Assembly: GCA_039696685.1 (NCBI GenBank)
Contig: CP155566.1
Span: 1,240,001 to 1,304,000, forward strand
Source: Vibrio sp. CDRSL-10 TSBA
GTDB taxonomy: Bacteria > Pseudomonadota > Gammaproteobacteria > Enterobacterales > Vibrionaceae
DNA: 64,000 nucleotides
Direction: 5' to 3'
The position numbers and the translations under genes were made by a program. The notes below the pieces were generated by a model. The model did not search any database. It was not told where the DNA came from and saw nothing but the letters and a program-made list of their open reading frames with translations. This document shows, in pieces, positions 39 through 52,187 of the stretch. Every line of letters starts with the position of its first letter. Position 1 is the stretch's first letter.

Positions 39-2085
39 TCAAATCAGGGTCATCAGCGGATCGCCACTGCTGACTCTGGTCGAGCTGGTGACAATCACAT
101 CCAAATAATCATCGCTGTTGGTAATCACTATCGGTGTGGTGGTGTCATATCCGAGGGTGGTCAGCACTTGCAGGTCAAACTGTATCAGTAGTTGTCCCTG
201 GACGACCTCCTGGCCTGCCTCAACCAGCAATTCAAATCCCTTGCCTTTGAGTTTGACCGTATCGATGCCGATGTGAATCAGCATTTCCACGCCGTCTTCA
301 CTTTGCAGCCCGATCGAGTGATGGGTTTTGAATACCGAAGCGACTTTACCATTAAACGGCGCTCGCAGTTCTCCGCTCTCCGGGATGATGGCGACGCCTT
401 GCCCGATAATTTCACTGGCGAAGGTAGGGTCACCAACCATAGATAAAGCGACTACCTGACCGGAAATCGGACTGCTGATTTGCGCAAAGGAGCGGCTTTT
501 AGCTCGTTTCTGCCGGTAAGTTATACCTATCAGCTTTGTCGGACGCTTTTGTTCCCGCAGACGCCATTGTTTCCGATGGTACAGTAGTTCCTGCAGACGC
601 CATTCTTTCCGCAGACACACTGGTTTTTTCAGACACCATTCTTTCCGCAGACACACTGGTTTTTTCAGACACCATTCTTTTCGTAGATAGCATAGCTTTT
701 CCGCTTGCCTGGCTGTCTGGGGTAAAAAAGTAGGTGAGAGTGATCGCCAGCAGTAAAGTAAGCAGGGTGCCTAAAATTGTGGCATACACCGAGTTGTCCA
801 CGCCCGTTGGCGGAATAATCTGCAGAATAGAAAACAGGCCCGGCATCGCCAGCGAATAGGCTTTGGCGTAAAAGAAGGCTGCGATACCTGAGCCGACTGC
901 AGCAGATAAGCAGCCAAAAATAAACGGCCATCGTCTGGGCAGAGTAATGCAATATATCGCGGGTTCTGTGACGCCAAACATCGCTGTGACCGCCGCACTA
1001 CCAGCGTAAGCAACACTTTGTTGCTTGCGGTATTTCAATACAATTCCCAGACAAGCACCGACCTGGCCAAACACAGCGGGAAGCAATAGTGGTGGGATAA
1101 CATCAAAACCATTCACCGCGATGTTGCTCATCACTATAGGAGCCAGGCTCCAGTGGATGCCAAACACCACCAAGACTTGCCATATCGCTCCGATGATCAT
1201 ACCGGCAATGACCGGACTGGCGTGATACAAGAAGAACACGACAGTAGAGATCGCTTGGGCGATAGTAGTACTGAGCGGCCCGATGACCAGAAAGGTTAAC
1301 GGAATGGTGATCATCAGGCACAGAAATGGTGCCAGCCACTTATAAAGATATTCGGGTAGTGACTTAGGGATACGTCGCTCCAGCCAGACATTAAACCAAG
1401 TGGCGAATAAAACGGGAATCACCGAGTTTGAATAGTTAATAAACTGGAGGGGCAGGCCGAGAAAATCGGCTTGCTGGGGCGTCACTGCGGCCGCTTGTTG
1501 TGAAAAAAGCGCATCGACATGACTGGTAATCTCAGGGTGTACCAGGGCTCCGGCGATAGTGATCCCAAACAGTGGATTGGAGCCAAAATGTTTTGAAGCC
1601 GTATAACCGAGTAATACCGGCAGAAAGAAAAACACCGTATCGGCGGCAGAATAGAGGATACGGTAAGTGCCGGTATCGATACCCAACCATCCCATACTGA
1701 CACACAAAATTATGGTGCTTTTTAAAATGCCGGCTGCACTCAAAAACCAGAGAATAGGATTGAAAATGCTAGTAATGGTGTTGATTAGAGTGCTAACGTG
1801 CCCTGGAAAGTTGTGGTTTTCCGTAGTACCTATCAATGGTGTTACGGACTGATAGAGTTTCTCAACCTGGGTTCCGATGACGATCTGAAACAGACCTCCG
1901 GACAGCATCACAGAGATCACTTCCGGCAGCTGTTGAATCTCTTTCACTGCGTCTACGGGGATCTGTTTGAGCTGGAAGCGTAGACGGGTAGTGCAATGGG
2001 TCACCCGTACTACATTTGACGGGCCGCCGAGTTTGGTGATGATCTGCCGGGCCAGGCGGTCATGATAGTCACTGGATATTTGCAT
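39..2085 (-). CDS. bglF: Beta-glucoside PTS permease EIIBCA (BglF type), frameshifted
   Basis: Membrane permease that imports and phosphorylates aryl-beta-glucosides. It also controls the neighbouring antiterminator by phosphorylation (family knowledge). Order is EIIB (phospho-Cys in HCTTRLRF near residue 30), a multi-span EIIC (about residues 100-450), a linker, then EIIA with the HIGIDTVKL phospho-His motif. The EIIBC frame stops at 499-501 and EIIA lies in another frame. Deleting one T from GTTTC at 506-510 joins them into about 681 residues (E. coli BglF is about 625). The extra length is a linker of 6-residue repeats from an 18-bp tandem array. It follows the antiterminator gene by about 9 bases, so the two form one operon. 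Confidence 0.85.
547..690. repeat. 18-bp tandem repeat array in bglF linker
   Basis: Eight consecutive 18-base units, alternating between two subtypes, so the central part also reads as perfect 36-base repeats (601-636 equals 637-672). On the coding strand each unit encodes six residues such as VSEKTS or VSAERM. The array sits exactly in the flexible linker between EIIC and EIIA, where length change should be tolerated. Confidence 0.9.
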
Positions 2086-2093
2086 AGCGTCGA

Positions 2094-2945
2094 TCAGTTG
2101 GCTGGTGCAGCGCGACGCACACGTTCAACATGAATGGTCAGAAACATCATCTCTTCTGAGGTCATGGCATGTTTGAACTGTTTATCGACATAACGGCTGA
2201 TTTTTTCCACACAAGCGAACGCCGCAGGGTACTTGCCGCGCACTGACTGAAACAGTGAATCGTCGTCATCCGAAATGGTGGTCTGATGAATCAGGCGGTG
2301 TACGAAGAATTTAAGATGCGTAACTAAACGACGAAATTCATCGCTGTCTTCATTCAAATCCAGACCGAGGTTGTACTTAATCATATGCACGATATCACGA
2401 ATCAGATTGGTGACATTGATGGTGTTGTTCATATCTTCGTTAAGCTGTGCATTGACCAGATGCAGAGCGATAAAGCCGGCTTCATCCTCGGCAAAACTGA
2501 CCCCGGATGCGGCTTTGAGCAATTGCAGAGCCTGACAGCCAATTTTAAATTCCACCGGATAAAGCTGTTTAATTTCCCACAACATACCATTTTTGACGAT
2601 TTGACCGGTGCGTAACCGTTCAATGGCAAAATGGATGTGATCGGCCAGTGAAATATGAATACTCGGGTGTAACTCCGCGCTTAATGTACTCTGGGCTAAC
2701 TCGACGATTTGTTCGGTTGCGGCCAATAGCTCGAGCGGGATTTCTTCTAACAATTCCCGATAGCGATTATCGATAGCATCGTCGTCACTCTTGGCCAGAG
2801 TGAACACCTTTTCTATCTTGTCGGCGGCAATTTCCATACCGGGTTTCATTTGAAATCCGATACCGCGTCCCATCACCACCACTTCTCGTTCATTGACATC
2901 GGTAGAGATAAGAACGTTATTATTTAATACTTTTGATACACGCAT
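2094..2945 (-). CDS. bglG: BglG/LicT-family transcriptional antiterminator
   Basis: RNA-binding antiterminator of 283 residues. The N-terminal CAT-type RNA-binding domain (about residues 1-60, MRVSKVLNNNVLIS start) is followed by two PRD domains (about 65-170 and 171-283) with the expected histidines. Family proteins bind a ribonucleic antiterminator (RAT) hairpin and so prevent formation of an overlapping terminator, under PTS phosphorylation control. A RAT-terminator pair lies in this gene's own leader, and two more lie in the divergent operon's leader. The antiterminator therefore probably controls its own operon with bglF and the EIIBC-porin operon as well. Confidence 0.9.
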   Translation of the reverse strand: MRVSKVLNNNVLISTDVNEREVVVMGRGIGFQMKPGMEIAADKIEKVFTLAKSDDDAIDNRYRELLEEIPLELLAATEQIVELAQSTLSAELHPSIHISLADHIHFAIERLRTGQIVKNGMLWEIKQLYPVEFKIGCQALQLLKAASGVSFAEDEAGFIALHLVNAQLNEDMNNTINVTNLIRDIVHMIKYNLGLDLNEDSDEFRRLVTHLKFFVHRLIHQTTISDDDDSLFQSVRGKYPAAFACVEKISRYVDKQFKHAMTSEEMMFLTIHVERVRRAAPAN

Positions 2946-2977
2946 AATTTTTTAGAGTAATAGGCAGTTTGGTGCAT

Positions 2978-3025
2978 AAAAAAACCTAAGCTGGTCAGAT
3001 AGGGTGATCTGTCCTGAGCTTAGGT
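2978..3025 (-). terminator. RAT-controlled intrinsic terminator in bglG leader
   Basis: Stem ACCTAAGCT (2984-2992) pairs perfectly with AGCTTAGGT (3017-3025). On the minus strand it is followed by a run of T. Its promoter-side arm overlaps the 3' end of the RAT, so RAT and terminator are mutually exclusive. Confidence 0.88.
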
Positions 3026-3052
3026 TTTGCCTGCTGATTGCAGTAACAATCC
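3022..3052 (-). promoter_or_regulatory. RAT antiterminator site of the bglG-bglF operon
   Basis: The minus strand reads GGATTGTTACTGC, a short loop, then GCAGGCAAAACCT. This matches the LicT/BglG RAT consensus very closely. It ends inside the 5' arm of the terminator at 2984-3025, the classic bgl arrangement. Confidence 0.9.
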
Positions 3053-3055
3053 TGT

Positions 3056-3371
3056 AATTTGCGCACAGTGTATAATCTTCATCGCACCCTCTCAAATTGA
3101 TGACCGCGAATGTGTGAATGGATACACACTATTGCTCAAACAGTCCGAAATGCGGACTGTTTTCTTTGGCTTATAATAATCGGAACAAACCAAAATAGGT
3201 ATAAATGCTTGTTTGGAACCGGTTACAAATGTGATTTGAGTCGCTGTTTGGGCGATATTTAATGATATGAAGCCGATCTGAATCACATTTGGCATTTGAC
3301 TGCGTTGACCGGAAAATCGGCTGGATTTATCGTTCACGCCATCGAAGCAGGCAAGTGTCGATTGAGATACC
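3056..3371. promoter_or_regulatory. Divergent bgl promoter region with inverted repeats and CRP/LacI-like sites
   Basis: Gene-free spacer between the two bgl operons. A 10-base inverted repeat (AAACAGTCCG at 3138-3147, CGGACTGTTT at 3153-3162) could be an operator or a terminator stem. A LacI-family-like palindrome TGGAACCGGTTACA lies at 3214-3227. Two TGTGA half-sites in AAATGTGATT contexts, one on each strand (about 3227-3245 and 3270-3290), resemble weak CRP sites. A candidate minus-strand -10 (TATACA) lies near 3069-3074. Promoter assignments are tentative. Confidence 0.45.
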
Positions 3372-3455
3372 TTGTTACTGCAGACGGATTATTGTGACAG
3401 ACTGTTGTAATAGACAGGCTGTTGTTACAGAAAACGGATTGTTATCGCGAAAGCG
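3372..3455 (+). repeat. Degenerate 17-bp tandem array of RAT-like units
   Basis: Five units of 16-17 bases (3372-3388, 3389-3404, 3405-3421, 3422-3438, 3439-3455). Each opens with a variant of TTGTTAC, the left arm of a RAT, and several end in a variant of ACGGA. The last unit is part of the functional-looking RAT at 3436-3466. Confidence 0.6.
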
Positions 3456-3466
3456 AGCAAAACCTG
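3436..3466 (+). promoter_or_regulatory. First RAT antiterminator site upstream of EIIBC operon
   Basis: GGATTGTTATCGC, a GAAA-containing loop, then GCGAGCAAAACCTG. It fits the BglG/LicT RAT architecture with a compensated central stem. It overlaps the left arm of the terminator at 3461-3515. Confidence 0.85.
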
Positions 3467-3515
3467 ACTTAACTTACCCAAAGCTTATTTGCCGGGAAGT
3501 GGTCAGGTTTTTTTA
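3461..3515 (+). terminator. Intrinsic terminator 1 in EIIBC leader
   Basis: AACCTGAC (3461-3468) pairs with GTCAGGTT (3502-3509), followed by a T run. The left arm is shared with the RAT at 3436-3466. Confidence 0.85.
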
Positions 3516-3550
3516 TAGATAAAACTCAGGTTAGTTTTCGTTATTTTTCG

Positions 3551-3661: not shown

Positions 3662-5093
<1,432 letters not shown>

Positions 5094-6604: not shown

Positions 6605-8209
<1,605 letters not shown>

Positions 8210-8210
<1 letters not shown>

Positions 8211-12316: not shown

Positions 12317-13259
12317 TCAAGCCAGCGAATGACCAAACTGACGCTGATAACGTGCGAGCATGCTCTCATTGCCCAGTAATCCGCCCTGATGAATATACAG
12401 CAGTGACTTATCAGGCTGCGTTGGCAGCCAGTGCCTCAGTAAACGCCACATTAACGGGTCGTACAGTAAATCAAATTCCACCTCGGTTTGGGCGCGTAAC
12501 TGCTGCCAGATCTGGTAATCCTCTGCATAGAGGCGACCAAAATGATGTTTGGATGAAGGGCTGATGATGGTTGGGTAGCGCGCAGCCGGAGCCAGGTTGT
12601 GAGCGACAGGTTGGGTTTGCCCGATGAGCTGATCAAACTGCTCAAGCAGGTAGCCCTGGTCGCCGACGCACGGGCAGGTCACCACTTCAATCCCATGCGG
12701 CGCTAATGTCTGATGCAGGTAGAGCGCCGTTGTCCCGGTTCCCGAGGGCAGCACAACCCGCCATTGCTGCTCAGGTTGCTGGGCAATCCAACTGATCAGC
12801 TCATTGCCCAGTGCCGTCACTCCTTGTTTGGCGATTGGGGTGCGGCCGCCTTCCTCCAGCACCAGGCAGTGATTGTCCGGCCGGCGATATTGGGCAATGT
12901 GTTGTTTGGGGTGTAACTGACTCAGCGCGCGGGTTTCGATGATTTGTGCGCCCAGCGCCAGCGCTGCACGATAGTTGCCGTTCGGGTTTCTGTTTCAGCC
13001 AGCCCGGCACGTGGTCTACATAAAACTCCAGCTGCCAGCCACGCAGATTGGCCAGAGCGGCCAGTGAATAGAGCGAGTTGGCTTGCGCGGAACCGTAGCA
13101 GATTAAGGTATTGACCTCAGGTAATGCCTGTTCCAGCAAGGGCATAAATTTACGTGCTTTGTTCCCGCTGAACTGTGCGTGCAGTTGGTCATCCCGTTTG
13201 AGATAAAAGGAAAAATCACCAAACTGATGGAGGGTGACGGGACTGTCGGCAAGTTTCAT
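12317..13259 (-). CDS. dcyD: D-cysteine desulfhydrase / ACC deaminase-family PLP enzyme, frameshifted
   Basis: Fold-type II PLP enzyme. The PLP-binding Lys is in QFSGNKARKF (about residue 35), followed by CYGSAQANSLYSLA, and LPSGTGTTALYLHQ forms the phosphate loop. The frame breaks after WLKQ. Removing one base of GTTTC at 12986-12990 (a second GTTTC at 12992-12996 is also possible) gives WLKQNPNGNYRAALALGA and a 313-residue protein, near DcyD length. The substrate, D-cysteine or 1-aminocyclopropane-1-carboxylate, cannot be told from sequence. An 18-bp repeat array lies just upstream. Confidence 0.82.
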
Positions 13260-13284
13260 AACATTCGGTCTCAGTTAGGCACTT

Positions 13285-18572: not shown

Positions 18573-20256
18573 TCAGCTGAGCAGAATAAGCAGAGTACCC
18601 GCCAGCGTCATCAGAATATTGGCAATCGCATAAGTACCGGCATAGCCCAGCGCCGGAATGGTTGATTTGGCGTAATCATTGACAATGTCCATCGCCGGTG
18701 CGCATGTGCGGGCACCAATGATGGCGCCAAACAGCAGCGCACGGTTCATTTTCAGTATGTGTGCGCCCACCAAGTAAGCGAAGACAACCGGCAGCACACT
18801 GACCACAAAGGCCAGACCGATCACCTGCGGGCCGACTTCTGATAAGTGTTCAAACATGCGCCCGCCGGCGCTCAGACCAATACCGACCATAAAGATCATC
18901 AGGCCTAAATCTTTGACCATATTCAGTGCACCTTGTGGTACGTAGCCAAAGGTCGGGTGATTGGCACGTAAAAAGCCCAGCGTGATGCCCGCCAGCAGAA
19001 GACCGACCGCGTTACCCAGACTGAACGAGACCTGGCCGAAGGTCATAGTGACCAGACCAAACAGAATACCCAGAATAAAGAAGCTGCAGAATGCCAGCAA
19101 ATCCGCCATCTGACTGTGAATCGAGATAAAACCGATTTTGTCTGCCAGGCCTTTAACGCGGCTGCGTTCACCACTGACCTGCAGAACATCGCCTTTGGCC
19201 AGTACGATATCCAGGTCCATCGGCATTTCGATTTGAGCCCGAACCACGCGGTTCAGGAAACAGCCATCCTCAGACAGGTTAAGATCAGACAGGCGTTTAC
19301 CGGCAATCGTATCGCTTTTGACAACGATTTCTTCTTCTACCACGCGCAGGTCAAGCAGGTTACGGTCGAACACCTCTTTACCGTTACGAAAACTGGGTTC
19401 CAGTCTGGCGTGGCTGTCCGGGAAGCCCACCAGGGCAATTTCGTCACCTTCCTGCAAAATCGCGTCACCATCAGGATGGGCGAGAATGCCGTTACGTCGG
19501 ATACGCTCGATGTAACAACCGGTCTGACGATAAATACCCAGTTCACGCAGATTACGTCCGTCGACCCATTGCACCAGTTCCGGCCCCACGCGATAGGCAC
19601 GAATAATCGGCAGGTACACTTTACGTTGTCCGCTGCCACCCAGACCGCGTTTCCTGAGCGATTTGCTGGGCAGAATCAGACAGGTTTTGCTTTTGCAGGT
19701 TAGGCAGCAGTTTAGCGAACATGATCATACTGATAAGGCCGATCAAATAGGCCATCGCATAGCCGACGGAAACATTTTCCAGCACCAGAGAAATATCCAG
19801 ATTACGCGGCACGGAAGACAAACCCGAGTTCAATGCATCCTGCGCGCCAACCAGCACCGGAGTCGAGGTCAGGGCACCGGCCATCATACCGGCCGCCAGG
19901 CCTAAATCGAGATTGAGGTAGTGATTGGCCAGATAGGTCAGCACGGTCGCCGTGATCAGCACGACCAGGCTTAAAATGAGGTAATGTTTGCCATCGCGGA
20001 AGAAAATACTGAAAAAGTTGGGGCCGGCTTCAATACCGACGCAGTAGATAAACAGCATAAAGCCAATGGTGAGGGCTTCTGCATTGAAGGAGAAACCGAG
20101 GTGTCCCATGATCAACGATGTGATCAATACACCGATAGAGTTACCTAACTGCAGGCTGCCAAAGCGGATTTTGCCAAAAGCAAGGCCAATAGCCAGAACA
20201 ACAAAGATGAGAAGAATAGGGTTTTGGTCTAGCAAAAATACGACGTCGATGTTCAC
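18573..20256 (-). CDS. ybjL: YbjL-type AAE-family transporter, frameshifted
   Basis: Inner-membrane protein of the aspartate:alanine exchanger family. Two multi-span membrane halves flank two RCK_C domains ([16 protein letters not shown] and [14 protein letters not shown] segments). The frame breaks after QQIAQE. Removing one base of GTTTC at 19649-19653 gives [20 protein letters not shown] and 560 residues, against 561 for E. coli YbjL as I remember it. The substrate is unknown. As in E. coli it lies next to grxA. Confidence 0.88.
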
Positions 20257-21060: not shown

Positions 21061-22345
21061 ATGTTTCAGTTTATGACAGCAACTCGGATTATTTTTGGTG
21101 AAGGCTCGTTGCAACAATCCTTGTCGGTTATCTGTCAGTATGGCCAACGTGTCCTGCTGGTATCGGGCAAAAATACCGAGCGAGCGAAACCGGTGGTTGA
21201 TTACCTCAATCAGCAAGCCATGCACTACCAGCATTTGTCGATATGCAGCGAGCCTAACATTACCATGGTTGAAGAGTGTGCTGCCCGTGGGCGCCGTTTC
21301 AGGCCGGATGTGGTGGTGGCTATCGGCGGTGGCAGTGTGATTGATATGGGCAAAGCACTCGCTGCGATTATTCCCAATCAGGGGAATGTGTATGACTACG
21401 TCGAAGTCGTCGGGCGCAATGTACCGCTCAAGGCCAAACCTTTAGCCTTTATTGCGATTCCGACCACAGCCAGTACGGGTTCAGAAGTCACTCGCAATGC
21501 TGTGCTGCGTTCCGGCCAGGACAGGGTCAAAGTCAGTCTGCGCAGTCCGGACATGCTGGCCGATGTGGCGATTGTCGACCCGACCCTGACTTACGGTACC
21601 GACAGTTATACTTCCGGCCGGGGCGCGATGGATGCGTTTGTCCACCTGATGGAAGCCTATGTGTGCGGCGATCCTAACCCGTTGACGGATATGATTTGTG
21701 AAGAAGGGTTACGCCGTTTGTCGCGCTCCCTGCTTGCGGCTTGCCTGGATGATGACAAAAATGCTCGCTGTGATTTATCGTTTGCCGCATTGCTGGGGGG
21801 AATGGCCATCACCAATGCAAAACTCGGTGCAGCACACGGCCTTGCGTCTGCGCTTGGAGGTAAGTTGGATGCACCACACAGCGTGATCACAGCACGGCTT
21901 GCTCCTTACGTGATGCAAGAAAACATTCATGCTGCTCAGGTCGCCGGGCGGACAGAGGTTATCGAAACGCTATCGCTGTCTGTCGCGCTTGCTGACACTG
22001 CGCAAAAACGCTGGTCTGGAAGACGGTATTCTATGGGTGCAAATGATGCTAGATACGTTGCATGTGCCGGTGTTGGGTCAGTTCGGGGTCTGTAATACGT
22101 CATTTGAGCAGGTAGCATCAGATGCACTGAAATCACACGCGATAAAAGGGAATCCGTTGCCGCTGACCCGTGAGCGCCTGATCTATATTCTGCAGCAGGT
22201 GTGCAACTGTGCGGCGCCTCAAACAGCGCAAACAACCCAAACAAGCCAAACACCTCAATCCGCACAAGCATCCAGCCCGCAGCAGACGTACATTGAGGTA
22301 TTGCACGATTCTGCGCGGCACGCAGCAGATGGCCTGCAGAGCTGA
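21061..22345 (+). CDS. Iron-containing alcohol dehydrogenase, frameshifted, with Q/T-rich tail
   Basis: Group III metal-dependent alcohol dehydrogenase. NAD site VVVAIGGGSVIDMGKALAA, PTTASTGSEVT, and the metal-binding stretch with AHGLASALGGKLDAPHSV. The first frame runs into nonsense near the C terminus. Removing one A of GAAAC at 21964-21968 gives IERYRCLSRLLTLRKNAGLE and 427 residues. After the enzyme domain comes a tail of six 3-residue repeats (QTA, QTT, QTS, QTP, QSA, QAS) not normal for the family. The alcohol substrate is unknown. Confidence 0.85.
22220..22273 (+). repeat. 9-bp tandem repeats in Fe-ADH tail
   Basis: Six 9-base units starting CAAACA or CAA (22220-22228 through 22265-22273), encoding QTx/QxA triplets. 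Confidence 0.8.
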
Positions 22346-25412: not shown

Positions 25413-25926
25413 TTAGTGACAGGTGATCTGCTCAGTTTTGGCTATCGCCTGATTGTATTTGTCGAGCGCAGATTCAATCTGTTTCGGATGGCTGAGTAAA
25501 TCGGCAAAAGCAGAACGCAGCTCGTAGTTCTTGGCATGTGGTTCTGCCTGGCGATCATCGAAGGTCGTTTTCGCGATTTGACCCAGTTCATCACTGCGCG
25601 AAGCGAGGACTTTGACATCCTGCTGCTCTAGCTGCAGCCAGGCTTCGACCGGTTGTCCGGTGGCAACTTTGGACGGATCGTGCTTGAGGTAGTAGTGAAC
25701 AGCGGCGCGATTGAGCTCAAAATGGTGTTGGCGGCCTTGCAGGAACCATTGGCTGACTTCCGCTAAATCTGGATACTTTTGTGTTGTCATCTCAGCCAGG
25801 TCGGTGTACCAGGCCAGGGATGCATCAATGTAAGCGTCATACTTTTGCGCAAAGCACTGATTGTCCGCTGCTGCGGCGCTCATCGAAACCGGCTGATAAC
25901 AGCAGAGTGACAAGAAAGCGTTTCAT
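25413..25926 (-). CDS. Hypothetical periplasmic protein, frameshifted in signal peptide
   Basis: Unrecognised, about 170 residues. Removing one A of GAAAC at 25886-25890 joins MKRFLVTLLLSAG to SMSAAAADNQCF, restoring a normal signal peptide from the ATG at 25926. Without it, a TTG start would give an export-less protein. The mature part is predicted largely helical, with single Cys near each end (NQCFAQKY and TEQITCH) that may form a disulfide. Operon context gives no function. Confidence 0.7.
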
Positions 25927-26085
25927 AAAAGTTCCTTTCCGACTTGTATCGACTTCCCTTTAGCTTAGGGAGTTATAGGTTTACGTCCAGTTTGGGTTGC
26001 TCATTTCACCGTAGACTGGTGCTATGCAGCTGGTCTATTGTAAAAGACACCCATTGTAAAAGATAAGTAACACTATTCCTGCGAT

Positions 26086-30379: not shown

Positions 30380-32330
30380 TTATAACGGCAGCCATAGGCT
30401 CATTGAGGTATAGGCGTTGATCTCACTGTCGACCTCAATCCAGCCTTGGTGCTGCAAAGCGATTTGCTGACAGACGGATAAACCGATTCCCAGTCCAAAA
30501 TTGCCTTCGCGTTTGGTGGTGAAATTGAGCGCAAAAATTTTGTCCCGTAATTGCGGTGGGATGCCGCAGCCATTATCGGTAATGCTGATCACCACGTAGG
30601 TTTTGTCCTCTTTAACGGCCAGCCGGGTGCGTATGTGAAGTGTGCCGCGCTCCGGCAGGGCGTCAATCGCATTGGCGATAAGATTAGTCCAGATCTGTTG
30701 CAAGGCAATCGGCTGACAGCGCACAAGGGGCAGCTCGGCGTATTCTTTCTCTACCCGGTGCATTTTGAGCCGGTTTTCAAAGATCACCAGGGTATCTTCC
30801 AGTCCTTCATGAATATCGACCAGATGAAAGGTTTCATCGTCCGGGCGGGCATAACCCTTGAGGCTTTTGACCATATCGGCAATCCGTTGCGAACAGACGG
30901 TAATTGAGCGTAAATTACTTCCGGCGAGGTGGTAACTTTCCAGTTCGCTCACCAATTGCAAGGCCTGCTCTGCATCCTGCTGCGCGATAGTGAGTATGGC
31001 CTGGTCTTCATCCAGCCCGAGAGTGACCAGTTTTTTCGCCAGTAACCTGTGTTGGATCTGCGCCTCCAGAGCCTGCGCTTTCGCGCGTACCTGAGCCGTT
31101 GAGAGCGGGTTGACCCGCAGCGCCTGGCGCAATAGTTGTGCGCCGTGATGGTCGATGGGCAGATGACTGGCGTGTTCAACAATCGATTCAATGTTGCGGG
31201 CCAGCGTTTCTGCGCCGCGCAGTATAGCAGCGACGGGGTTGTTCAGCTCATGGGCGACGCCGGCCACCAGTTGGCCCAGCATGGCCATTTTTTCCCGCTC
31301 TATCAATTGCTGATGGGCACTTTCCAGCGACTCCAGCGTTTTTTGCAGCGTGATTTTAGTGGTGATACTGCGCTGCAGCCGGCGGTTAAAATGGCGTAAC
31401 AGTAAATTGGTGAACAACGGCAGCAGGCGAGTGTCGGAGTGCATTACTTTAGCAAATACGCTTCTGTCGAGTTTGATCACTTCGGTCTGCGTCAGCGTGA
31501 TGGCGGTTGAAAACGAGGGTTCACCAGTGACAAAAGACATGCCGCCGACAATATTGCCTTTCGGATGTCGCACCACTTCTCGTTGCTGGCCCTGGTCATC
31601 TTTTTTGTACAGGGCGACTTCGCCCGAGGTAATGAACCATAAAAACCGGTTTTCGGTGCCTTCTTCCGTCAGCAGGTGTTGCGCCGAGTAGGTTTCGGCA
31701 GGCTCGAGTCTCATCATTGTGTTCAAAAAACTGGTACAAGGCGCCAATCACCTGCTCGGCCAGTTCCGTGTCTGACATCTGATGATAGTCACTGATGAAG
31801 CCCTCGCGGTAACTGCGCATCTTATTGTCGATATGAGCACGCAGAATACGCGATTGGTCGAGAACACTGCTGTAACTGAGCACGTTCTCGCTATCATGGG
31901 TAAGTAGATAGGTGGTGAGCTCCTGTTGCACGGTTTTGCGCAGCAGGTTATCCGCCAGCGGCTCGGTCAGACAATAGTCGAGTCGGCCTTCATTGACGGC
32001 ATTCACAATTGCCTGAATATCCTGGCCACTGCTGATGAGTATTTTGCGGGCGTTACGGGTGTGCGGCATCTTATCCAGCTGGATAAGAAAGTCGGCGCCG
32101 TCCACGGCAGAATGATGACTGGCCAGCACCAGAGCCACGACCTGATTGTGTTGCTCCACTTGTTCGAGGATATGATGAGCTTGCTGCAAAGAATCGGCGC
32201 TCAGTACATCAAACCGGCTGGCAAACACACTCAGCTCGTTACGCCAGTGTTGCACGCTGAGCGGATTGTTGTCTAAACAGAGCAGGGCATATCGGTTCAC
32301 AAGACTCTCGCACGGGCTATCACTATCCAT
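30380..32330 (-). CDS. REC-cNMP-histidine kinase fusion, frameshifted
   Basis: Repaired length 649 residues. Order: REC-like domain (about 15-140), linker helices, cyclic-nucleotide-binding fold (TEEGTENRFLWFITSGEVAL to FAKVM), HisKA with phospho-His in AGVAHELNNPVAAIL, and HATPase_c (NLIANAIDALP, ITDNGCGIPP, FGLGIGLSVCQQIA). The REC phosphoacceptor is lost: VALVLASHHSAVDG has Ser/Ala where Asp is expected. The two frames join when one base of GTTTC at 31692-31696 is removed (TRACRTYSAQHLL). The downstream intact REC protein is the obvious target. Confidence 0.83.
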
Positions 32331-35399: not shown

Positions 35400-35579
35400 A
35401 TGAGGAGCACAACAATCGACAGTAAAGTAAGCGACGTACCAGCAGCCATGTACGAGTCACCAACCATATACAAATCGAAAGCCAGGTACGAATCGCATGC
35501 CTGGTACGAACCGACAGCGATATTGGCCGGATACGGGCAGAATCTATCTATCGCCATCAACCAGATGCAGAGGGGTTGA
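35400..35579 (+). CDS. Possible 59-residue upstream ORF coupled to FAD gene
   Basis: Opens at ATG 35400 and stops at TGA 35577-35579, sharing an A with the ATG of the FAD gene (TGATG), a translational-coupling arrangement. About half of it is encoded by an 18-bp tandem repeat, giving MYESPT, IYKSKA, RYESHA, WYEPTA. No family is recognised. It may be a leader peptide or a chance frame through the repeat. Confidence 0.35.
   Translation: MRSTTIDSKVSDVPAAMYESPTIYKSKARYESHAWYEPTAILAGYGQNLSIAINQMQRG
35447..35518. repeat. Four degenerate 18-bp tandem repeats
   Basis: Units 35447-35464, 35465-35482, 35483-35500 and 35501-35518 share a pattern near CAGGTACGAATCGCATGC. Confidence 0.8.
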
Positions 35580-37313
35580 TGATGGCGACTGAGCAAGGAC
35601 AGGTTCAAGAGTACGATTTGATTGTCATCGGCTCCGGCGCGGCCGGATTATCAGCCGCCGTGACAGCGGCTTACCATGGTCTGAAGGTGTTGGTTTTAGA
35701 AAAAGCACCGGTCATCGGCGGAACGACCACCTGGTCGGGTGGCTGGATTTGGGCCCCTCGCAATCATCTCGCGGCGGAACAGGGTATCCGTTATGACTAC
35801 CAGGATGTTGAAACCTATTTGCGCAATGTGGTGAAAGACCAGTTTAATCCTGAACGGGTCAGCGCTTTTCTGCATGGCGCACCGCAGATGGTGGCTTTTT
35901 TCCATCGTCATACCGCGTTGCAATTTGACTCCGGTTTGCATATTCCGGATACCTACAGCCTTGAAGAGGGCGCAGGAAACCGGCGGCCGCTCGGTCATCG
36001 CCAAACCTTACAACGGCCGTAAACTGGGCAAATGGATCCGCCGTTTGCGTAAGCCGTTACCAGAAACGACCTTTCATGGCCTGACCATTCAGGCCGGTGT
36101 CGATCTGAAACATTTTATGAACGTAACCCGCAGTGTGGGCAGCTTTTGTTATGTTGCTAAGCGGGTGAGCAAACACATTATCGATCTGGCGCTGTACCGG
36201 CGCGGCATGCAGTTACGCAATGGACTTTCTCTTGCGGCGCGTTTATTGCGTTCGGCGCTTGATTTAGGTGTCAGGTTTGAGACCAACTGCCGTCGGGTTG
36301 AGCTGAACCTGCGCGACGGACAAGTTCGTGGTGTGACCTTTATCGATGACTGCGAGCAGCCGCGAGTCTGCCATGCCGTGAAAGGTGTGGTGCTGGCGAC
36401 CGGGGGCTTTGCCCATGATAAAGAGCGCGTCAACAAGCTGTTTCCGCAAGGCGTGGAGCATAAAACTCTGGCCGTACCCACGGCAACCGGTGACGGACTT
36501 AATCTGGGCATACAAGCTGGCGGTGAAGTCGAGACGCGTTATCCGGCGGCGGGCTCCTGGTGTCCGGTCTCTCTGGTTCCCAAACCAGGTCAGCCAGATG
36601 GGGTATTTCCGCATATCATTGACCGTGGCAAACCGGGCATTATCGGGGTGTTACAGGACGGAAGGCGTTTTTGTAACGAAGGGATGGGTTATTACGATTA
36701 TGTCAAACATCTGATTGAGACCGCACCGCAGGGACAAGCGGCTCAGTCATGGCTGATATGCGATCACACTTTCCAGCGTCGTTATGGCCTCGGCGTTGCG
36801 CGTCCGGCGCCGCTGCCTGTGGGTCGATACATAGAAAGCGGTTACCTGATCAAAGCGGACTCAATCACAGAGCTGGCGCAAAAGTGCGGTATTGATGCTC
36901 AGGGACTGGAGCAGACGATTCAAGACTGGAACAGGCACGCGCGTAAAGGACAAGATCCGCAATTTCATCGTGGCGAAACTGCCTATACCCGCTTGCAAGG
37001 GGATGCCAGCCATCAACCCAACCCTTGCGTAGCGCCCATTGAGCGTGGTCCGTTTTACGCAGTGCGGGTCATTACCGGTAGCTTTGGTACATTTGCCGGC
37101 TTAAGAAGCGACGGACAAGCCCGAGTACTGAATACGAAGGGCGAACCAATCCCCGGCCTGTATGCTGCCGGCTGTGATTTGGCGAGTGTGATGGGCGGTC
37201 AGTATCCGGCCGGAGGAATTAATTTGGGACCTGCTTTGACGTTTGGTTATCTCGCTGCCCGTAACGCAGCAGGCGTCACTGACTGGGAAGTGGACTTAAG
37301 GGGAAGAATCTGA
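35579..37313 (+). CDS. FAD-binding 3-ketosteroid dehydrogenase/fumarate reductase-like flavoprotein, frameshifted
   Basis: Repaired length about 577 residues. N-terminal Rossmann fold for FAD (LIVIGSGAAGLSAAVTAAYH) and VIGGTTTWSGGWIWAP; C-terminal GLYAAGCDLASVMGGQYPAGG and GPALTFGYLAARNA, typical of KstD-like members. The frame breaks in the middle. Removing one A of GAAAC at 35976-35980 gives EEGAGTGGRSVIAKPYNGRK, the expected motif. No signal peptide, so cytoplasmic. Its stop overlaps the next gene's start. The substrate may be a cyclic ketone or enoate; it cannot be fixed from sequence. Confidence 0.8.
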
Positions 37314-38893: not shown

Positions 38894-39833
38894 TCAGACG
38901 GCATCGCCAAAATGTGGCTGACCATCCTGCCATTCAAGCACTTTAACCCGGGTGTGGCGGTTCGGATCCCAAAGCGGATCACCCTCAATTTCGGTGTAAT
39001 CGCGTGCGTGATAGACCAGTAAATCGTTGCCGTGTTCATCCCGGGTAAAGCTGTTGTGACCTGGTCCATACACCTTGAGCTGCCAGTTGGTGGCAAAGAC
39101 CGGGCGGGCAGATTTATGCCAGCTGGCAGGGTCGAGTAAGTCACTATCTTCATCGGCCCACAGCAGGCCCATACAGTAGTTTTCATCTGTCGCGCTGGCC
39201 GAATACGTCATCCAGAATTTGCCGTGCCGATGCAGTACCGAAGGTCCTTCGTTGACCCAGAATCCACGTTGTTCCCAGTCAAACTCAGGGATACTTAACC
39301 GCTGCGGCGGAGTCTTGAGTATCAGGGGTGTTTCCAGTTCGGCGATATACAGGTTGGAGTTGCCGGTGATGCCGTTTTCCTTTTGCGCCCAGACATAGTA
39401 GTTGCGGCCTTGGTGAGAAAACGCAGTCGCATCCAGGCAGAAACGTATCCATACCACTGTCAATCTGGCCGGCGAATGACCAGTTGTCGCTTATGGGGTT
39501 CGCATTGCTGTTTGAGATGGCATACATCCGATGCTGAAACAGCCCATCGACGATCTCACGTGACGGCGCAGCAGCGAAATAGACGTACCAGCAGTTGTCG
39601 ATAAAATGTAGCTCCGGTGCCCAGATTAAATCGCTGTAAGGGCCGTCGTCCGGTTTATACCAAGCGTTAATCAGTTCGCTGCTGGTGGCAAGCTCCGCGA
39701 TTGAACGCGCGCGGCGAATTTCAATCCGGTCATATTCGGGCACAGACGCGGTAAAATAGTAATAACCGTCGCTGTGGCGATAGATGTGCGGGTCAGCCCG
39801 CTGCTCAATGATTGGATTAATCAGTGTTTGCAT
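38894..39833 (-). CDS. GH43-family glycoside hydrolase, frameshifted
   Basis: Repaired length 312 residues. Five-bladed propeller signatures of GH43: catalytic base Asp in RADPHIYRHSDGYYYF, an Asp in LIWAPELHFID, and the acid Glu in FWVNEGPSVLHR. The frame breaks in the middle; removing one A of GAAAC at 39440-39444 gives SGMDTFCLDATAFSHQGRNY. No signal peptide, so it acts on imported oligosaccharides such as arabino- or xylo-oligosaccharides (inference). It follows the GPH transporter gene by 12 bases. Confidence 0.83.
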
Positions 39834-44111: not shown

Positions 44112-44709
44112 ATATTTAAAACGTGCTCACTTTACGCTAAGGGCTGAGCGGCTGCATGACCATGTTTGTAATATGGCTTTGTGCCTGTGTTGTGTGGTCG
44201 CACACTCAACGCCCGAAATTCTTTTCGCGCCGATCTGTTTATGACCCGAATGGTCTGAAACAGTCACTGACGACCACTCCTGGCCGCTTACATTGCGCGT
44301 GTTGAGAGCCGAAGACATCCGCTGTCAGCTCTGTTTTTGCTGGCTTAGTTAAGGCTTGAGCAACCTGTGCTCAAACTGGTCTGCATGGAAATTTTCCGTT
44401 CTCAACTTTGCAATAATAGCAGGTGAAAAAAGACGCCAGACAAAATAGCGGTGGAGTGTACCACGTTCTCAGCGAAGCCGCTCTGTTTCTGTTGTTAATA
44501 AACACAACAGTTCATCATCAGTGAATTGCGCTGCCATAACCGTGCTGAATGGTGGTGGTGAACGACACAACAGGGACTTACCAAGAGGTCGCAACCATTG
44601 TTAACCTGATTTAAAGCGAAGGGGGATTGCTCCCAGAATCAGGACGCTGTGTTGTTAAGGCGGGTGGTGGCTGCTACCATTCGGGAAATATCTACAATTG
44701 CTTAACATT
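44112..44709. other. Gene-poor region between ygiQ and the GGDEF gene
   Basis: 598 bases. Short open frames exist on both strands but none has a good ribosome site or a recognisable product. I see no terminator with a T run and no repeat. Confidence 0.5.
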
Positions 44710-46096
44710 ATGCTTGCACAACACTCTTCTTCTAAACCCTGGATTCTGGTTGATGCGGCGGTGTCTATCGTACGTCCCTTTGGTGCGGCTGCCGTTTCTG
44801 TTCGGTTTGATATCATTTGTCGGCTATGCCGCTCATATTGAAGAACTGTATCGCCCGTTTCCTAATGGGCCCGCGACCAATCCCCAGACGGCCGCCGTCG
44901 TCGTACTGATCGGTTTGAGTTTGCTGGTTGGTTCTGCTTCACAAAGAGCGATTTGGTTACAACGCACTTTCGCTACCCTGGCCTTGCTTGTCGTCGGAAC
45001 GCGAATTTTCGATGCGCTGTTTCAAACCCAAATAAGCCAGAGCGTAATGCCGTTTCATCATTTGGTGCTGGCAGACATCGCACAGGGCAAAAGTAACAGC
45101 TTTGGTGTGAATTCAGCCTTGATGCTGGCTGCCTGCGCAGCAGCTGTGTGGTTCAAAGCCATACGGCAGCAAATGTTGTCACAGTTGGCGGCATCGCTGG
45201 CGTTTTCTATTCCGATGATCACTTTTATCGGTTACTCCTATCAACTGAGCAGTTTCTACGGTGAGATGTCTTTGCTAACTGCAACGGCGGGTTTCACTCT
45301 GAGTCTCTCCGCGCTGGCGCTGAGCGCCGATTTTGGTGTGCTGAAGAGCATTCTCAGCCCCTATATTGCCGGCAAAGTGGCACGTTATCAGGTCGTGGTG
45401 GGCTACCTGTTTCCAATCCTGATTGGTTATTTTCTGGTGAATTCGTTTTTGGCCGGTGATACCAGCATTCTCGGTATGTTTGTGGTGATTGTGTGCTGGT
45501 TTATTGTACTCATGGTGGGTATTTCAGCGATTTTTGTCGAGCGGGTTGATCGCAGCCGGCGCGAAATGGAAAGTAAACTTATTTACGCTGCCTATAACGA
45601 TAAGCTGACTGCACTGCCGAACCGCCGCAAGTTTTTTGATGCCGGCGAACATGAGCTGACGCGTGCGCGCCGCAGTGATACCCGCTTGTGTGTCATGATG
45701 CTAGATATCGATTATTTTAAATCGATTAACGACAAAGCAGGGCATGCGATTGGTGATAAGGTTCTGATCGAGATTGCGAAAACCCTCAAAGCAACATTGC
45801 GCGACGTGGATGTTGTCGGACGCATTGGTGGAGAAGAATTTGCTGTTATTCTGGCTGACACTAACAGTAAAGGTGCTGGTTATGTTGCCGAAAAACTGCG
45901 CCGTAACGTGGAGGGTACCGAAGTTGAAGGCTGGACTGATATTCATGGCCCGGTCACGACGTCGATTGGCTGGACTACCAGTCGCGGCGAGAAAAGCCTG
46001 GATGAGTGTCTGAGCGAAGCTGATAAAGCTTTATACCGCTCAAAGGAGAACGGCCGTAATCAAGTCATCGCTTTCTCTGATTTACAATACGCTTAG
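44710..46096 (+). CDS. Membrane diguanylate cyclase (GGDEF), frameshifted at N terminus
   Basis: Repaired length 461 residues. An N-terminal sensor of about seven membrane segments (residues about 30-290) precedes a GGDEF domain with DKLTALPNRRKFFD, MLDIDYFKSINDKAGH and the active-site variant GRIGGEEFAVIL (GGEEF, active type). It makes cyclic di-GMP. There is no RxxD inhibitory site before GGEEF that I can see. Removing one T of GTTTC at 44794-44798 joins MLAQHSSSKPWILVD to VLFGLISFVGYAAHIEELY; otherwise only a poor TTG start fits. It lies directly upstream of a c-di-GMP riboswitch. Confidence 0.85.
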
Positions 46097-48472: not shown

Positions 48473-49720
48473 CTAGGAGAGAGATACCCGGCTGAGTAAC
48501 TTGGCGGGTTGACGGGCAATCAGGATCTCTCCATGACGCACTGAATATAGCACTTCGCCCTGTTTCTGAATCACTTCTACATCATTGCTGCCTTGCAGGA
48601 CAATAAAGTTGGCCGGTTTACCCACTTCGATACCGTAGCGATCTGAGATATGCAGCGCTTTGGCGCCGTTATCGGTGATTAAATCCAGCGCGGTTGCCAG
48701 GTCTTCATAGCCCATCATATGGCAGGAATGCAGCCCGGAATCGAGCACGCGCAGCAGCTTACCGTTTCCGACTGGATACCAGGGATCCTGAATGGAATCT
48801 TCGCCAAAACAGATATTCATACCGGCTGCGCGAATTTCTTTGACCCGTGTGATGCCGCGTCGTTTCGGATAGGTATCAAAGCGGCCTTGCAAGTGGATGC
48901 TTTCTGTCGGACAGGAAATAAAGTTAATCTTTGACTTCTTGAGCAGGCGGAACAGCTTAGAGCAGTATGCGTTGTTGTAAGAGTGCATGGCCGTGGTGTG
49001 ACTGGCGGTGACCCGCTCGCCCATATTTTTTTCCAGTGCCACGGTTGCCAACACTTCGAGAAAACGTGATGCTTCATCATCGATTTCATCACAATGCACA
49101 TCAACCAGTTTATCGTGTTTTTGCGCCAGGTCCATCAGCCATTCCACCGACTGCACGCCATATTCGCGCGTGAATTCAAAATGTGGAATACCACCGATAA
49201 CATCGGCTCCGTGTTCAAGCGCTTTTTCCATCAACTCGGTGCCGTTAGGGTAGGAGAGGATACCCTCCTGCGGAAAGGCCACGATTTGCAAATCAATAAA
49301 AGGTGCCAGTTGCGGGCGCAATTCGTTAATGGCCTTCAGAGCCACTAAATCAGGGTCAGTTACATCGACATGGGTACGGATATGCTGAATGCCATTTTCC
49401 AGCAGCAGTTCGATGGTTTTCAGTACCCGCGACTGTACATCTTCCCGGCTCAGCATCGGCTTACGTTCTGCCCAGCGCTCAATGCCTTCAAACAGCGTTC
49501 CGCTCATGTTCCAGTTGGGCTCCCCGGCGGTCAGTACCGCGTCCAGGTGAATATGAGGTTCAACGAAAGGGGCGCACAGCAGGTTACCTGCTACATCAAT
49601 CTCCGCCCGGGCGTCGCTGATCATGCCTGATTGCGGTGTGATAGCGGTAAACTGGCCCTGTTCACATTCGAGGCTGTAGAGTCCTTGTTTGCCTCTCAGG
49701 CTGGCGTTAATAATAATCAT
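48473..49720 (-). CDS. codA: Cytosine deaminase
   Basis: 415-residue amidohydrolase converting cytosine to uracil. Metal ligands: PHIHLDAVL (HxH), DVHCDEIDDEAS (His), SHTTAMHSY (His) and FGEDSIQDPW (Asp). Start at MIIINASLRG with AAGGAAGG upstream. It lies at the 3' end of codB-pucR-codA, 11 bases after pucR. Confidence 0.93.
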   Translation of the reverse strand: MIIINASLRGKQGLYSLECEQGQFTAITPQSGMISDARAEIDVAGNLLCAPFVEPHIHLDAVLTAGEPNWNMSGTLFEGIERWAERKPMLSREDVQSRVLKTIELLLENGIQHIRTHVDVTDPDLVALKAINELRPQLAPFIDLQIVAFPQEGILSYPNGTELMEKALEHGADVIGGIPHFEFTREYGVQSVEWLMDLAQKHDKLVDVHCDEIDDEASRFLEVLATVALEKNMGERVTASHTTAMHSYNNAYCSKLFRLLKKSKINFISCPTESIHLQGRFDTYPKRRGITRVKEIRAAGMNICFGEDSIQDPWYPVGNGKLLRVLDSGLHSCHMMGYEDLATALDLITDNGAKALHISDRYGIEVGKPANFIVLQGSNDVEVIQKQGEVLYSVRHGEILIARQPAKLLSRVSLS

Positions 49721-49731
49721 GGTTCCTTCCT

Positions 49732-50925
49732 TCAAAAGTGCAATTTGTCAGTTGATGGCTGCGTATTGGTTGCAGATGAAAACAGCAAACGTTCTGCGAT
49801 CAGTGCGGATTGGAGACTCAACCTCTGCTGGGCATTGTTGAGGCTCAGACCGGTCAGTTGCTCTATCTTACTCAGCCGGTTGCTGAGCGTATTACGATGA
49901 ATATTGAGGTGAGCGGCGGTTTGGCGCAGTGATCCCAGGTTGTCGAGATAGCTGCTTAGCGTGTGTTTGAGTAATTGATTGTGTTTGTCCTGATCGCCAT
50001 ACAGTCCGCCCAGATGTTGTTTGCAAAAGTCAGCCAGAAATTGCGGATCTTCAAGGCGGCTGAAAATTTGCGCAATGCCAAGACTATTGTAATGGACCAC
50101 CTGATACCCCTGATGGGCAGCACTGAAATCTGCACTTTGCCGTGCTTGTAACACCGCCTGACGCAGGTTGCGCAGCGTTCTGGCTTCGCTTACTCCAAGA
50201 TGGCAATCAATTCCCTGACGGGCAAGATGCTGTGCCAGTTGCTGCCACACCGCAAGCGTGTCGGGGCTGTTGGGGGCAAGTGGCAGGCAGGCCAGCCAGC
50301 CCTGGTGATATTCGAGTACGGGAAGAGCTCCGCTAAAACCAGCCAGGAATTGGCTGATTAAATGTTGGCTACGTATCAGATCACTGGTCTGATTCGAAGC
50401 GGGAGTAATGACCGCCACGGACCAGATACTGTTAACATCTATGCCGTGTTCGCTGGCTTTGAGCAACGTCATGTCCGATGGCACTGTGGTCTCCAGCAAG
50501 TGTTGAACCAGCCAGCGGGTCGACTTGTGTTCCAGATCGGTCATGATGATCGCATTCGACAGCAGCTCGGTGACTTTGACCATCGGCAGTGCCCACGGCT
50601 GCTCAATCACGGGAAAGCCACACTGGTCGGCGAATGCCAACACTTTGTGTGGAATTTCTTCCAAATAAGGGGAATGAGTCAGCAGTACCAGACCGCTGGC
50701 ATTTCTCGCTTTGGCGGTCGTAATCAGCTGGATAAAATCGTTGGCTTGCCAGTTCCAGTTTAAACCGGTCACGAAGATAAGCTCGCCACCTTCAATCCAG
50801 TCTTTAATATCCGCATTTTCCGCGACGTAAGGCCAGCGGATAATATTGCGCCGGCCTTGCTGCCCGGCCCGGAGCTGCAAAGGCTCCAGGCCGGAAATAC
50901 ACCCTAATGAATCAATGGTAACCAT
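49732..50925 (-). CDS. PucR-family transcriptional regulator
   Basis: About 397 residues. N-terminal PucR purine-regulator-like domain (about 5-125; WPYVAENADIKDWIEGGELIFVTG) and C-terminal PucR helix-turn-helix (about 325-385; TAAHLNIHRNTLSNRLSKIEQ). Lying between codB and codA, it probably controls cytosine uptake and use. ATG 50925 directly follows the codB stop (TAAG-ATG); a GTG at 50937 would overlap codB by 11 bases. Confidence 0.87.
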   Translation of the reverse strand: MVTIDSLGCISGLEPLQLRAGQQGRRNIIRWPYVAENADIKDWIEGGELIFVTGLNWNWQANDFIQLITTAKARNASGLVLLTHSPYLEEIPHKVLAFADQCGFPVIEQPWALPMVKVTELLSNAIIMTDLEHKSTRWLVQHLLETTVPSDMTLLKASEHGIDVNSIWSVAVITPASNQTSDLIRSQHLISQFLAGFSGALPVLEYHQGWLACLPLAPNSPDTLAVWQQLAQHLARQGIDCHLGVSEARTLRNLRQAVLQARQSADFSAAHQGYQVVHYNSLGIAQIFSRLEDPQFLADFCKQHLGGLYGDQDKHNQLLKHTLSSYLDNLGSLRQTAAHLNIHRNTLSNRLSKIEQLTGLSLNNAQQRLSLQSALIAERLLFSSATNTQPSTDKLHF

Positions 50926-50926
50926 C

Positions 50927-52187
50927 TTACTGCGCACTCTGGATAGCGCGTTGTTTGGCGCCCGACAGCGACAGCAACAGGGTATAGCTTGCGGCGGAGA
51001 CCAGAATGCCGACCAGCGGTGCGACCCAAGGCGAGAAATAGGCGCAGCCAGAGCCGATAGCGTAAGCCAACAGACCTGACCAATTGTATTGTGGCAGATT
51101 AGCGGTGGTTAAATCCGGCATTTGCGTGCGGTATTTGACCCAGAAATCGGTCATGATGATGGCGCCAATCGGCGGGATAAAGGTACCGAGCAGAATCAGA
51201 AAAGGGATCAGCATATTATACATTCCCATGATCGCCATCGCGGTGCCGATAGCAGCCCCAATCCAGGTGATCAGGCGACGCTTGTCGGTACGCAGAATGT
51301 TACAACCGGCCGCCGCAAAGTTATAAATGGTGTTGTCCTGAGTGGTCCAGATGTTGGTAAACAGCATCAATACTGCAGCCAGCATAAAGCCTTGTGACAC
51401 CAGAACATCGACAATGTCCGATTGCTGATAAATCGAGGCACCGAATGCGCCGACAAAAACCATCAGGCCGTTACCGACAAAGAAAGCGGCCAGAGTTGTG
51501 ATCACGGCTACCTTGCCGTTTTTAGCAAAACGGCTCCAGTTAGTGGCCTGAGTGCCGCCGCTGACAAAAGTGCCAAACACCAGAGTAATGGCAGCGGCTA
51601 CTGGCATGCTGTCGCTTGGTTGCTTGCCGATCAGTTTCACCGATGCCGCCGACATCAATCAAACCTTTGTAAAAACTCAGGCCAATGAAAAACAGCATCG
51701 CCGGTACAGAAATTTTTGACAGCAGTTCCAGCGCTTTGTAGCCGATGGAAGCACTGATGCAAAAGCCAAAACCAAACACCACCATCAGCGGGACGGTCCA
51801 GGATTCTGGCAGTTCAAGCAGCTTGACTAGAATCAAAGCGATCGTTGCTGTACCCCATGCATACCAGCCTATCTGAGTAAAGCCGAGCACAAAATCAGAC
51901 AGTTTACTGCCATTCAAGCCGAAGCTGTAACGTCCGAGTAACACGGTATTGAGGCCAGTCTTGCAGGCAATATAAGCCAGGGCCGCCGCGTAGATGCCCA
52001 GTAAAGCGTTGCCAACCAGGATGATGGCCAACATCTCATAAAAGCTGAACGCGTTGCCCAGTGTACCGCCGGCCCACATAGTGGAAGTAAAAAAGGTAAA
52101 GCCGAGCAATACTGACATCATTGACCACATTCCCTTACGTTGGTCAGCTGGTACAGCACTTAACGGATAATCGCTTGTCGTCTTCAT
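50927..52187 (-). CDS. codB: Cytosine permease, frameshifted
   Basis: NCS1-family cytosine:proton symporter with about 12 membrane segments. Removing one base of GTTTC at 51634-51638 turns the break into DVGGIGELIGKQPSDSMP and gives 419 residues, the length I recall for E. coli CodB. The start at 52187 (MKTTSDYPLS) has AAGGA at proper distance. First gene of codB-pucR-codA. Confidence 0.88.

Follow-up and report, generated by a model that had tools for sequence, protein, structure and literature searches.

One-base insertions at GAAC/GTTC sites of a dnd-positive Vibrio assembly: probable sequencing scars of DNA phosphorothioation

Introduction

Why should gene after gene in one stretch of a bacterial genome be split by a single extra base, and within the same five letters each time? 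The question is raised by a 64,000-nucleotide stretch (the window; positions 1240001-1304000 of contig CP155566.1, here C2) of Vibrio sp. CDRSL-10 TSBA, whose assembly GCA_039696685.1 consists of two contigs that total 4,900,437 bases, with a completeness of 95.9 and a contamination of 4.55. Of 44 named loci retrieved for one window gene, three are from Vibrio and rank with the closest, and a genome of two large replicons suits this genus. An initial annotation of the window had listed twelve genes, each broken by one extra base in GAAAC/GTTTC (hereafter the motif), as if GAAC/GTTC had gained an A or a T, and had proposed that bases are systematically miscalled where GAAC is modified. Dnd systems modify part of the GAAC/GTTC sites of a genome: in both strands, sulfur takes the place of an oxygen in the phosphate that links G to A (or G to T).

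Here, we compare a large part of this genome with a close relative, describe a dnd locus near the window and follow the same insertion into Escherichia coli assemblies. The insertions, which we call scars, are very probably base-calling or consensus errors at phosphorothioated GAAC sites, and the genes are most likely broken in the assembly and not in the cell. The error proposed in the initial annotation draws support from the concentration of breaks on the motif, from the GAAC found in the relative and from two scarred E. coli assemblies.

Results

Frame breaks in the genome sample

We compared 787 kb of the genome, in three blocks, with 797 kb of a syntenic relative, G054, the stretches of which were picked by the synteny of GTPase anchors common to both genomes. 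G054 is among the nearest relatives in the 148 genomes compared, with a DNA identity of 78% around one gene. From 697 reference open reading frames (ORFs), 628 had a match and 608 were aligned over at least 70%. Frame breaks numbered 199 in the raw output and 196 when counted as distinct; of the latter, 191 were +1 (one extra base) and five had the opposite sign. The motif lay strictly within the junction at 179 of the 191 +1 breaks, where random coding intervals matched in length to the junctions would give 3.5, and at one of the five opposite-sign breaks. When 4 nt were allowed on each side, it was present at 184 of the 191 (as a single copy in 183 and in more than one in the other). Both the common sign of the breaks and their concentration on the motif had been claimed from the window, the latter being named there as a point on which the proposal could fail, and both hold across the 787 kb. 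Such a break is carried by 168 of the 608 aligned genes (28%).

The initial 400 kb of this DNA (the first sample), run through the same detector, yielded 89 +1 rows, 80 of them with the motif (the highest of 2000 random draws was six), and the junction was 7-13 nt wide in 72 of these 80. A reference-free frame model, trained on codon usage and calling switches of the coding frame, found 104 +1 switches in 400 kb of the genome, 89 with the motif, and 15 and two, respectively, in 400 kb of G054. At the homologous junctions, G054 has GAAC in 67 of 180 intervals vs 16 in control intervals, and GAAAC in three of 180 vs one in the control. A reverse control, in which ORFs of this genome served as references against G054, returned 12 breaks. 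None was +1; all had the opposite sign, and we take them to be the mirror image of this genome's own breaks within longer ORFs.

The broken genes include rpoB, rpoC, rplK (L11), infB (IF-2, three breaks), glnA, leuA, hldE and pdxJ, intact copies of which are present in G054. A cell should not survive with RNA polymerase genes, L11, IF-2 and the others all broken. With rpoB, rpoC, rplK and the threefold broken infB in the set, real mutations of the cell are a very unlikely source of the breaks.

Motif specificity and flanks of the scarred sites

Breaks of the first sample fell on 0 of 203 GAAAAC and on 2 of 2150 other NAAAC sequences. Ordinary homopolymer error was rejected, since the frequency of A/T runs within break intervals falls with run length in the aligned coding sequence, from 88 of 5672 runs of three to 2 of 1426 runs of four and none of the 654 runs of at least five; the sparing of longer homopolymers had already been noticed in the window. 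Relative to the coding strand, scars of the first sample were sense in 40 cases and antisense in 40; relative to the contig, the 183 scars of the whole 787 kb divide into 102 and 81. Programmed translational frameshifting or recoding at GAAAC/GTTTC could produce one recurrent 5-mer of one sign, but a ribosome could not read sense and antisense copies alike, 731 GAAAC/GTTTC stand unbroken in the aligned coding sequence, and G054 has GAAC and seldom GAAAC at these places. We rejected recoding on these grounds and regard its chance as negligible.

We next set the scarred coding GAAC/GTTC sites (183) beside the unscarred ones (4297), which gives a scar rate of 4.1%. At position -1, A occurs in 50% of scarred and 20% of unscarred sites, and T in 4% vs 37%; scarred sites are also enriched in K (G or T) at +1 (odds ratio (OR) 2.66), in G at +2 (OR 1.82) and in C at -3 (42% vs 26%). 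Phosphorothioated sites are reported to favour C at -2, M (A or C) at -1, K at +1 and G at +2 (accessible text of PMC9521924). The scar rate for zero to four matches to this preference is 1.0, 2.0, 4.3, 9.0 and 10.9%. The flanks share most, not all, of the published preferences: A at -1, K and G agree, and C at -1 and -2 does not.

This dependence on neighbouring bases would also be expected if the base caller were weak at some GAAC k-mers independently of any DNA modification. Of 20 contexts of 4+4+4 bases that recur identically, 19 include scarred as well as unscarred sites (few sites each), so local sequence alone seems not to decide; the flanks largely fit published phosphorothioate targets; and five E. 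coli scars described below occur only in dnd-positive genomes, although they were found in such genomes. We leave a plain k-mer weakness only a slight chance.

A separate observation concerns the 12 +1 junctions without the motif in the strict sense, two of which (C2:2810008 and C2:2946863) contain GTTAC/GTAAC. This 5-mer is absent from the top-ranking 5-mers listed. The two junctions, too few for a test, only hint at the minor GTAC phosphorothioate target reported for Salmonella (PMC9521924).

The dnd locus

The dnd-like system that the initial annotation had expected outside the window does exist: dndBCDE and dptFGH lie 26-44 kb upstream (Table 1). DndC, a sulfurtransferase with a 3'-phosphoadenosine 5'-phosphosulfate (PAPS)-reductase fold, matches TIGR03183 (550 bits) and the PADLOC DndC model (1069 bits), DndE matches PF08870 (105 bits) and DndB matches PF14072 (478 bits). 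The C-terminal piece of DndD covers positions 429-657 of the 657 of the DndD ATPase model, and the DptFGH restriction module matches TIGR03238, TIGR03236 and TIGR03237, all above cut-offs. No dndA was found in the locus among the ORFs scanned; for the cysteine desulfurase (DndA or IscS), the genome has 14 matches to PF00266, none assigned to this role. Counting this genome each time, DndE was detected in two of the 21 near-set genomes, in 23 of the 394 in the order sample and in six of the 369 in the class sample. A gene for a putative methyltransferase of the dnd-associated family TIGR04096 (709 bits; C2:1211513-1213540, minus strand) adjoins dndB.

Both dndD and dptH are themselves split by +1 breaks, with the motif at the junction in 13 of 15 and 10 of 10 reference comparisons, respectively. 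For dndD, all 15 comparisons cross both pieces with one +1 break between them, and the two open frames overlap by 32 nt that contain exactly one motif. A truly dead dndD would leave no mark, and the dndD break is therefore best read as a product of the system's own activity.

Escherichia coli assemblies with the same scar

Of 5426 complete E. coli genomes, 204 (3.8%) carry dndC. Three of the dnd loci of odd length found among 60 of 225 records were compared with that of strain 55989. Against this reference, the NCCP 13963 locus shows a single mismatch and one additional base within a GAAC, and the other two show ordinary homopolymer differences. Annotated frameshifts in two 50 kb stretches elsewhere in NCCP 13963 affect hsdR, bglJ and an IS3 transposase gene; compared with intact copies, the sole difference in hsdR (801 bases) and in bglJ (679 bases) is one base too many in GTTC. 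Two one-base differences of NCCP 13963 that fall at the end of an alignment we take as noise.

A query of 53 bases spanning the bglJ site, for which copies without the extra base fall under the seed length and copies with further nearby differences may be missed, matched four of the 5426 genomes: FORC_041 and NCCP 13963 exactly, and two others without the extra-base form. FORC_041 and NCCP 13963 are thus scarred at the same site, and both are dnd-positive. Over 48.6 kb, FORC_041 has seven one-base extras relative to NCCP 13963, two of them of the GAAC type; NCCP 13963 in turn has five, all of other kinds, and the bglJ scar is common to both. Over 24.7 kb, FORC_041 has seven extras relative to strain 120899, which itself has five, none of the GAAC type. 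Four genes are annotated as frameshifted in 50 kb of FORC_041, three with GAAC-type scars and the fourth an acylase gene. The remaining scars had a single carrier each, dnd-positive in every case, within the 99%-identity band: the dnd-locus site in 1 of 123, hsdR in 1 of 205, opgB in 1 of 4092 and yjjQ in 1 of 5357. At all five E. coli sites the motif is preceded by A or G and followed by G or T, as at most scarred sites of the Vibrio genome.

These assemblies also bear on the idea that the error stems from some other mark specific to GAAC, for instance methylation by the putative methyltransferase beside dndB. In its favour are that gene's position and known methylation-linked base-calling errors (PMC11389150, as far as its accessible text goes). 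No such methyltransferase is annotated around dnd in the stretches read of the scarred NCCP 13963 and FORC_041, and an adenine mark would presumably occupy one strand of GAAC/GTTC and leave half of the reads clean. The occurrence of scars in both orientations is no argument against methylation because GAAC and GTTC are one site on two strands. Overall, we consider a mark other than phosphorothioate quite unlikely.

As a side observation, a gene for a phosphorothioated-DNA-binding restriction endonuclease is annotated as incomplete in NCCP 13963 (L165 43958-44107), and such a gene stands near dnd, with no incomplete flag, in 55989 and FORC_041.

Scar-free dnd loci and other contrary observations

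Several observations weigh against phosphorothioation scars as the explanation. In sixteen further dnd loci (13 from the 22 remaining matches of the order sample, G006 and two of E. coli), the 1352 GAAC sites of the aligned coding sequence yielded no +1 break of the motif type, where the rate of this genome predicts about 55 scars, and the dnd locus of G805 has none among 46 GAAC sites. The presence of dnd alone is hence insufficient and the assembly procedure must matter; we read the scar-free genomes as corrected or differently sequenced assemblies. Seven of the 191 +1 breaks of the Vibrio genome have no motif within 4 nt. As for the flanks, C falls short of significance at -2 (OR 1.23, p 0.19) and shows no enrichment at -1 (OR 0.68, p 0.054), whereas G at -1 is enriched. 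In E. coli, only three of the seven extras of FORC_041 relative to 120899 are of the GAAC type, the dnd genes of FORC_041 are annotated as intact, and the fair test is confined to FORC_041, an unplanned second carrier of the bglJ scar that proved dnd-positive at a base rate of 3.8%. Finally, the evidence comes from consensus sequence alone.

The control loci held three places with a non-motif or opposite-sign break, two in G381 and one in an E. coli locus; the motif was included at the opposite-sign place of G381 by one of nine references. The order sample contains 22 more dnd-positive genomes, with a completeness of 99-100 in 21 and of 82 in one draft, vs 95.9 here.

The same loci help to judge whether the insertions could be real, with phosphorothioated GAAC sites acting as mutation hot spots in a decaying genome. 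A hot spot would explain why one site is scarred in two dnd-positive E. coli. It would also have to affect 28% of the aligned genes, including rpoB, rpoC, rplK and, three times, infB, as well as dndD, and 17 other dnd-positive loci lack such a scar. Real decay was rejected because essential genes and dndD are broken, and we give hot-spot mutation a very slight chance.

Genes of the window

Loci gathered for one window gene and tried as references across the rest of the window gave a single break place; the window genes were judged by family profiles and the frame model (Table 1). All twelve 5-mers listed in the initial annotation are present, one of them shifted by one base (25885-25889, not 25886-25890). 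Ten of the twelve gene breaks are upheld, and the signal-peptide and GGDEF cases are not. Seven genes are supported by both methods (EIIBC, porin, ybjL, Fe-ADH, the FAD_binding_2 protein, GH43 and codB). With bglF, for which the +1 switch is loosely placed, these make up the eight of twelve in which both halves match consecutive or complementary parts of one family; the same seven, together with dcyD and the kinase, both supported mainly by the frame model, make up the nine of twelve sites with the motif inside the overlap of the open frames at a +1 switch. Two motif copies lie in the overlap of bglF, GH43 and dcyD, which leaves the exact site ambiguous in these three. Over the whole window, the frame model called 19 switches, 12 of +1 (nine with the motif) and seven of the opposite sign (one with the motif). 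We read these seven and two of the motif-less +1 switches as ordinary gene boundaries; the third motif-less +1 switch is that of bglF.

Table 1. Split genes and unconfirmed cases in the window (window positions), and the dnd locus (contig positions)
Feature	Position	Strand	Open-frame overlap and motif	Family profiles	Frame model
bglF-like phosphotransferase system (PTS) EIIABC gene, two pieces (499-2085, 39-656)	39..2085	-	overlap 499-770; motifs 506, 569, site ambiguous	PRK09824 positions 4-477 and 469-626	switch loosely placed at 680
PTS EIIBC gene, two pieces	3671..5093	+	overlap 4470-4519; motif 4498-4502, single copy	PF02378 2-178 and 183-316	+1 switch
LamB-type porin gene, two pieces	6620..8210	+	overlap 7272-7297; motif 7290-7294	PF02264 1-106 and 111-378	+1 switch
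D-cysteine desulfhydrase-like gene (dcyD), two pieces	12317..13274	-	motifs 12986-12990, 12992-12996; stop-to-stop frames	upstream piece: weak D-cysteine desulfhydrase matches, under model cut-offs; downstream piece: no match	+1 switch at 12988
ybjL-like transporter gene, two pieces	18573..20256	-	overlap 19621-19724; motif 19649-19653	Asp-Al_Ex in one piece; TrkA_C and Asp-Al_Ex in the other	+1 switch
Iron-containing alcohol dehydrogenase gene (Fe-ADH), two pieces	21061..22345	+	overlap 21914-22095; motif 21964-21968	NF058672 6-312 and 300-376, the second weak (E 5e-5)	+1 switch
Putative signal-peptide case, break not confirmed	25413..25959	-	motif 25885-25889; short signal-peptide-like frame upstream	no match	no switch
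Response-regulator-like and histidine-kinase-like frames, one coding run	30380..32330	-	overlap 31596-31747; motif 31692-31696	pieces match different domains, support indirect	+1 switch at 31707
FAD_binding_2 flavoprotein gene, two pieces	35576..37313	+	overlap 35835-36022; motif 35976-35980	PF00890 1-103 and 104-414	+1 switch
GH43 gene, two pieces	38894..39833	-	overlap 39285-39490; motifs 39330, 39440	PF04616 3-114 and 117-288	+1 switch
GGDEF gene, single open frame, break not confirmed	44615..46096	+	motif 44794-44798; 493-codon stop-to-stop frame	GGDEF domain	no switch
codB-like cytosine permease gene, two pieces	50927..52196	-	overlap 51540-51658; motif 51634-51638	PF02133 2-167 and 197-409	+1 switch
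dptF, dptG, dptH (split), DGQHR-domain gene, dndE, dndD (split), dndC, dndB, putative methyltransferase	C2:1196009-1213540				

Two further features of the window stand apart from the scars. The split codB adjoins an amidohydrolase gene and a PucR-type regulator gene (48473-52196), likely a cluster for cytosine or purine use. A 529-codon gene (46800-48389, plus strand) has relatives of 78-91% identity scattered over Gammaproteobacteria (some Vibrio, Tolumonas, Marinobacterium, Azotobacter and Alteromonas) and of about 51-79% in Actinobacteria, and this patchy spread suggests lateral transfer.

Discussion

Taken together, our data point to a phosphorothioate mark that was misread during sequencing and left in the assembly as an extra base. 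The assembly is probably a long-read one, made from native DNA. Where modification is heaviest, the changed linkage would lead the base caller or polymerase to add one A or T in the majority of reads, and this addition would become fixed in a consensus that no short reads corrected. We infer the sulfur mark, the misreading step, the platform and the lack of correction from the pattern of the scars. By extension, dnd-positive long-read assemblies can probably carry fixed scars at their heaviest phosphorothioate sites, so that this epigenome may be readable from the consensus alone; the bglJ site suggests that such sites recur between strains.

The scars matter first as a problem of quality: 168 of 608 aligned genes look broken, probably falsely, and the two RefSeq E. 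coli genomes carry fewer such probably false pseudogenes. They are also a free signal. Motif-specific insertions may flag strains with working phosphorothioation and provide candidate maps at the level of single sites; a faulty assembly would thereby become an accidental map of sulfur marks, an artefact deposited as genome sequence. The context table of 183 scarred vs 4297 unscarred sites, from a new species, offers a handle on why Dnd marks only a minority of GAAC.

We found no report of consensus insertions at phosphorothioate sites among the titles and abstracts listed in searches of open-access papers, and the accessible text on a dnd-positive PacBio genome (PMC5760749) describes no such error. 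Errors of reads at phosphorothioates and errors linked to methylation are already known, and the consensus-level scar would be a new form.

The genetic system itself resembles DndABCDE-DptFGH (DndFGH): dndB, dndC, dndD and dndE are accompanied by dptF, dptG and dptH, the two groups facing each other as in the E. coli locus L102. Unlike that system, the locus described here has no adjacent dndA and has a putative methyltransferase gene next to dndB.

As to the marks, EcoWI-seq and single-molecule real-time (SMRT) maps of Salmonella (PMC9521924) likewise reveal partial use of GAAC/GTTC, reuse of sites and a preference for A at -1, K at +1 and G at +2. They differ in that 12% of sites were modified, vs 4.1% scarred here, and in favouring C at -1 and -2, which is not clearly favoured here; the accessible text describes no assembly error. 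Similar in rate is the Oxford Nanopore Technologies (ONT)/ELIGOS study of Salmonella enterica Cerro 87 (PMC9069010), which, in the text accessible, reports raised error at GAAC/GTTC, with 3.9% of GTTC and 4.4% of GAAC flagged, and disturbance across strands. That study compares reads with unmodified DNA, whereas here the error persists in a deposited consensus and breaks genes. Errors in nanopore typing (PMC11389150, accessible text) are alike in being motif-specific and strain-specific consensus errors that arise from native modification; there, base methylation leads to base ambiguity, whereas here a mark that is probably on the backbone leads to the insertion of one base.

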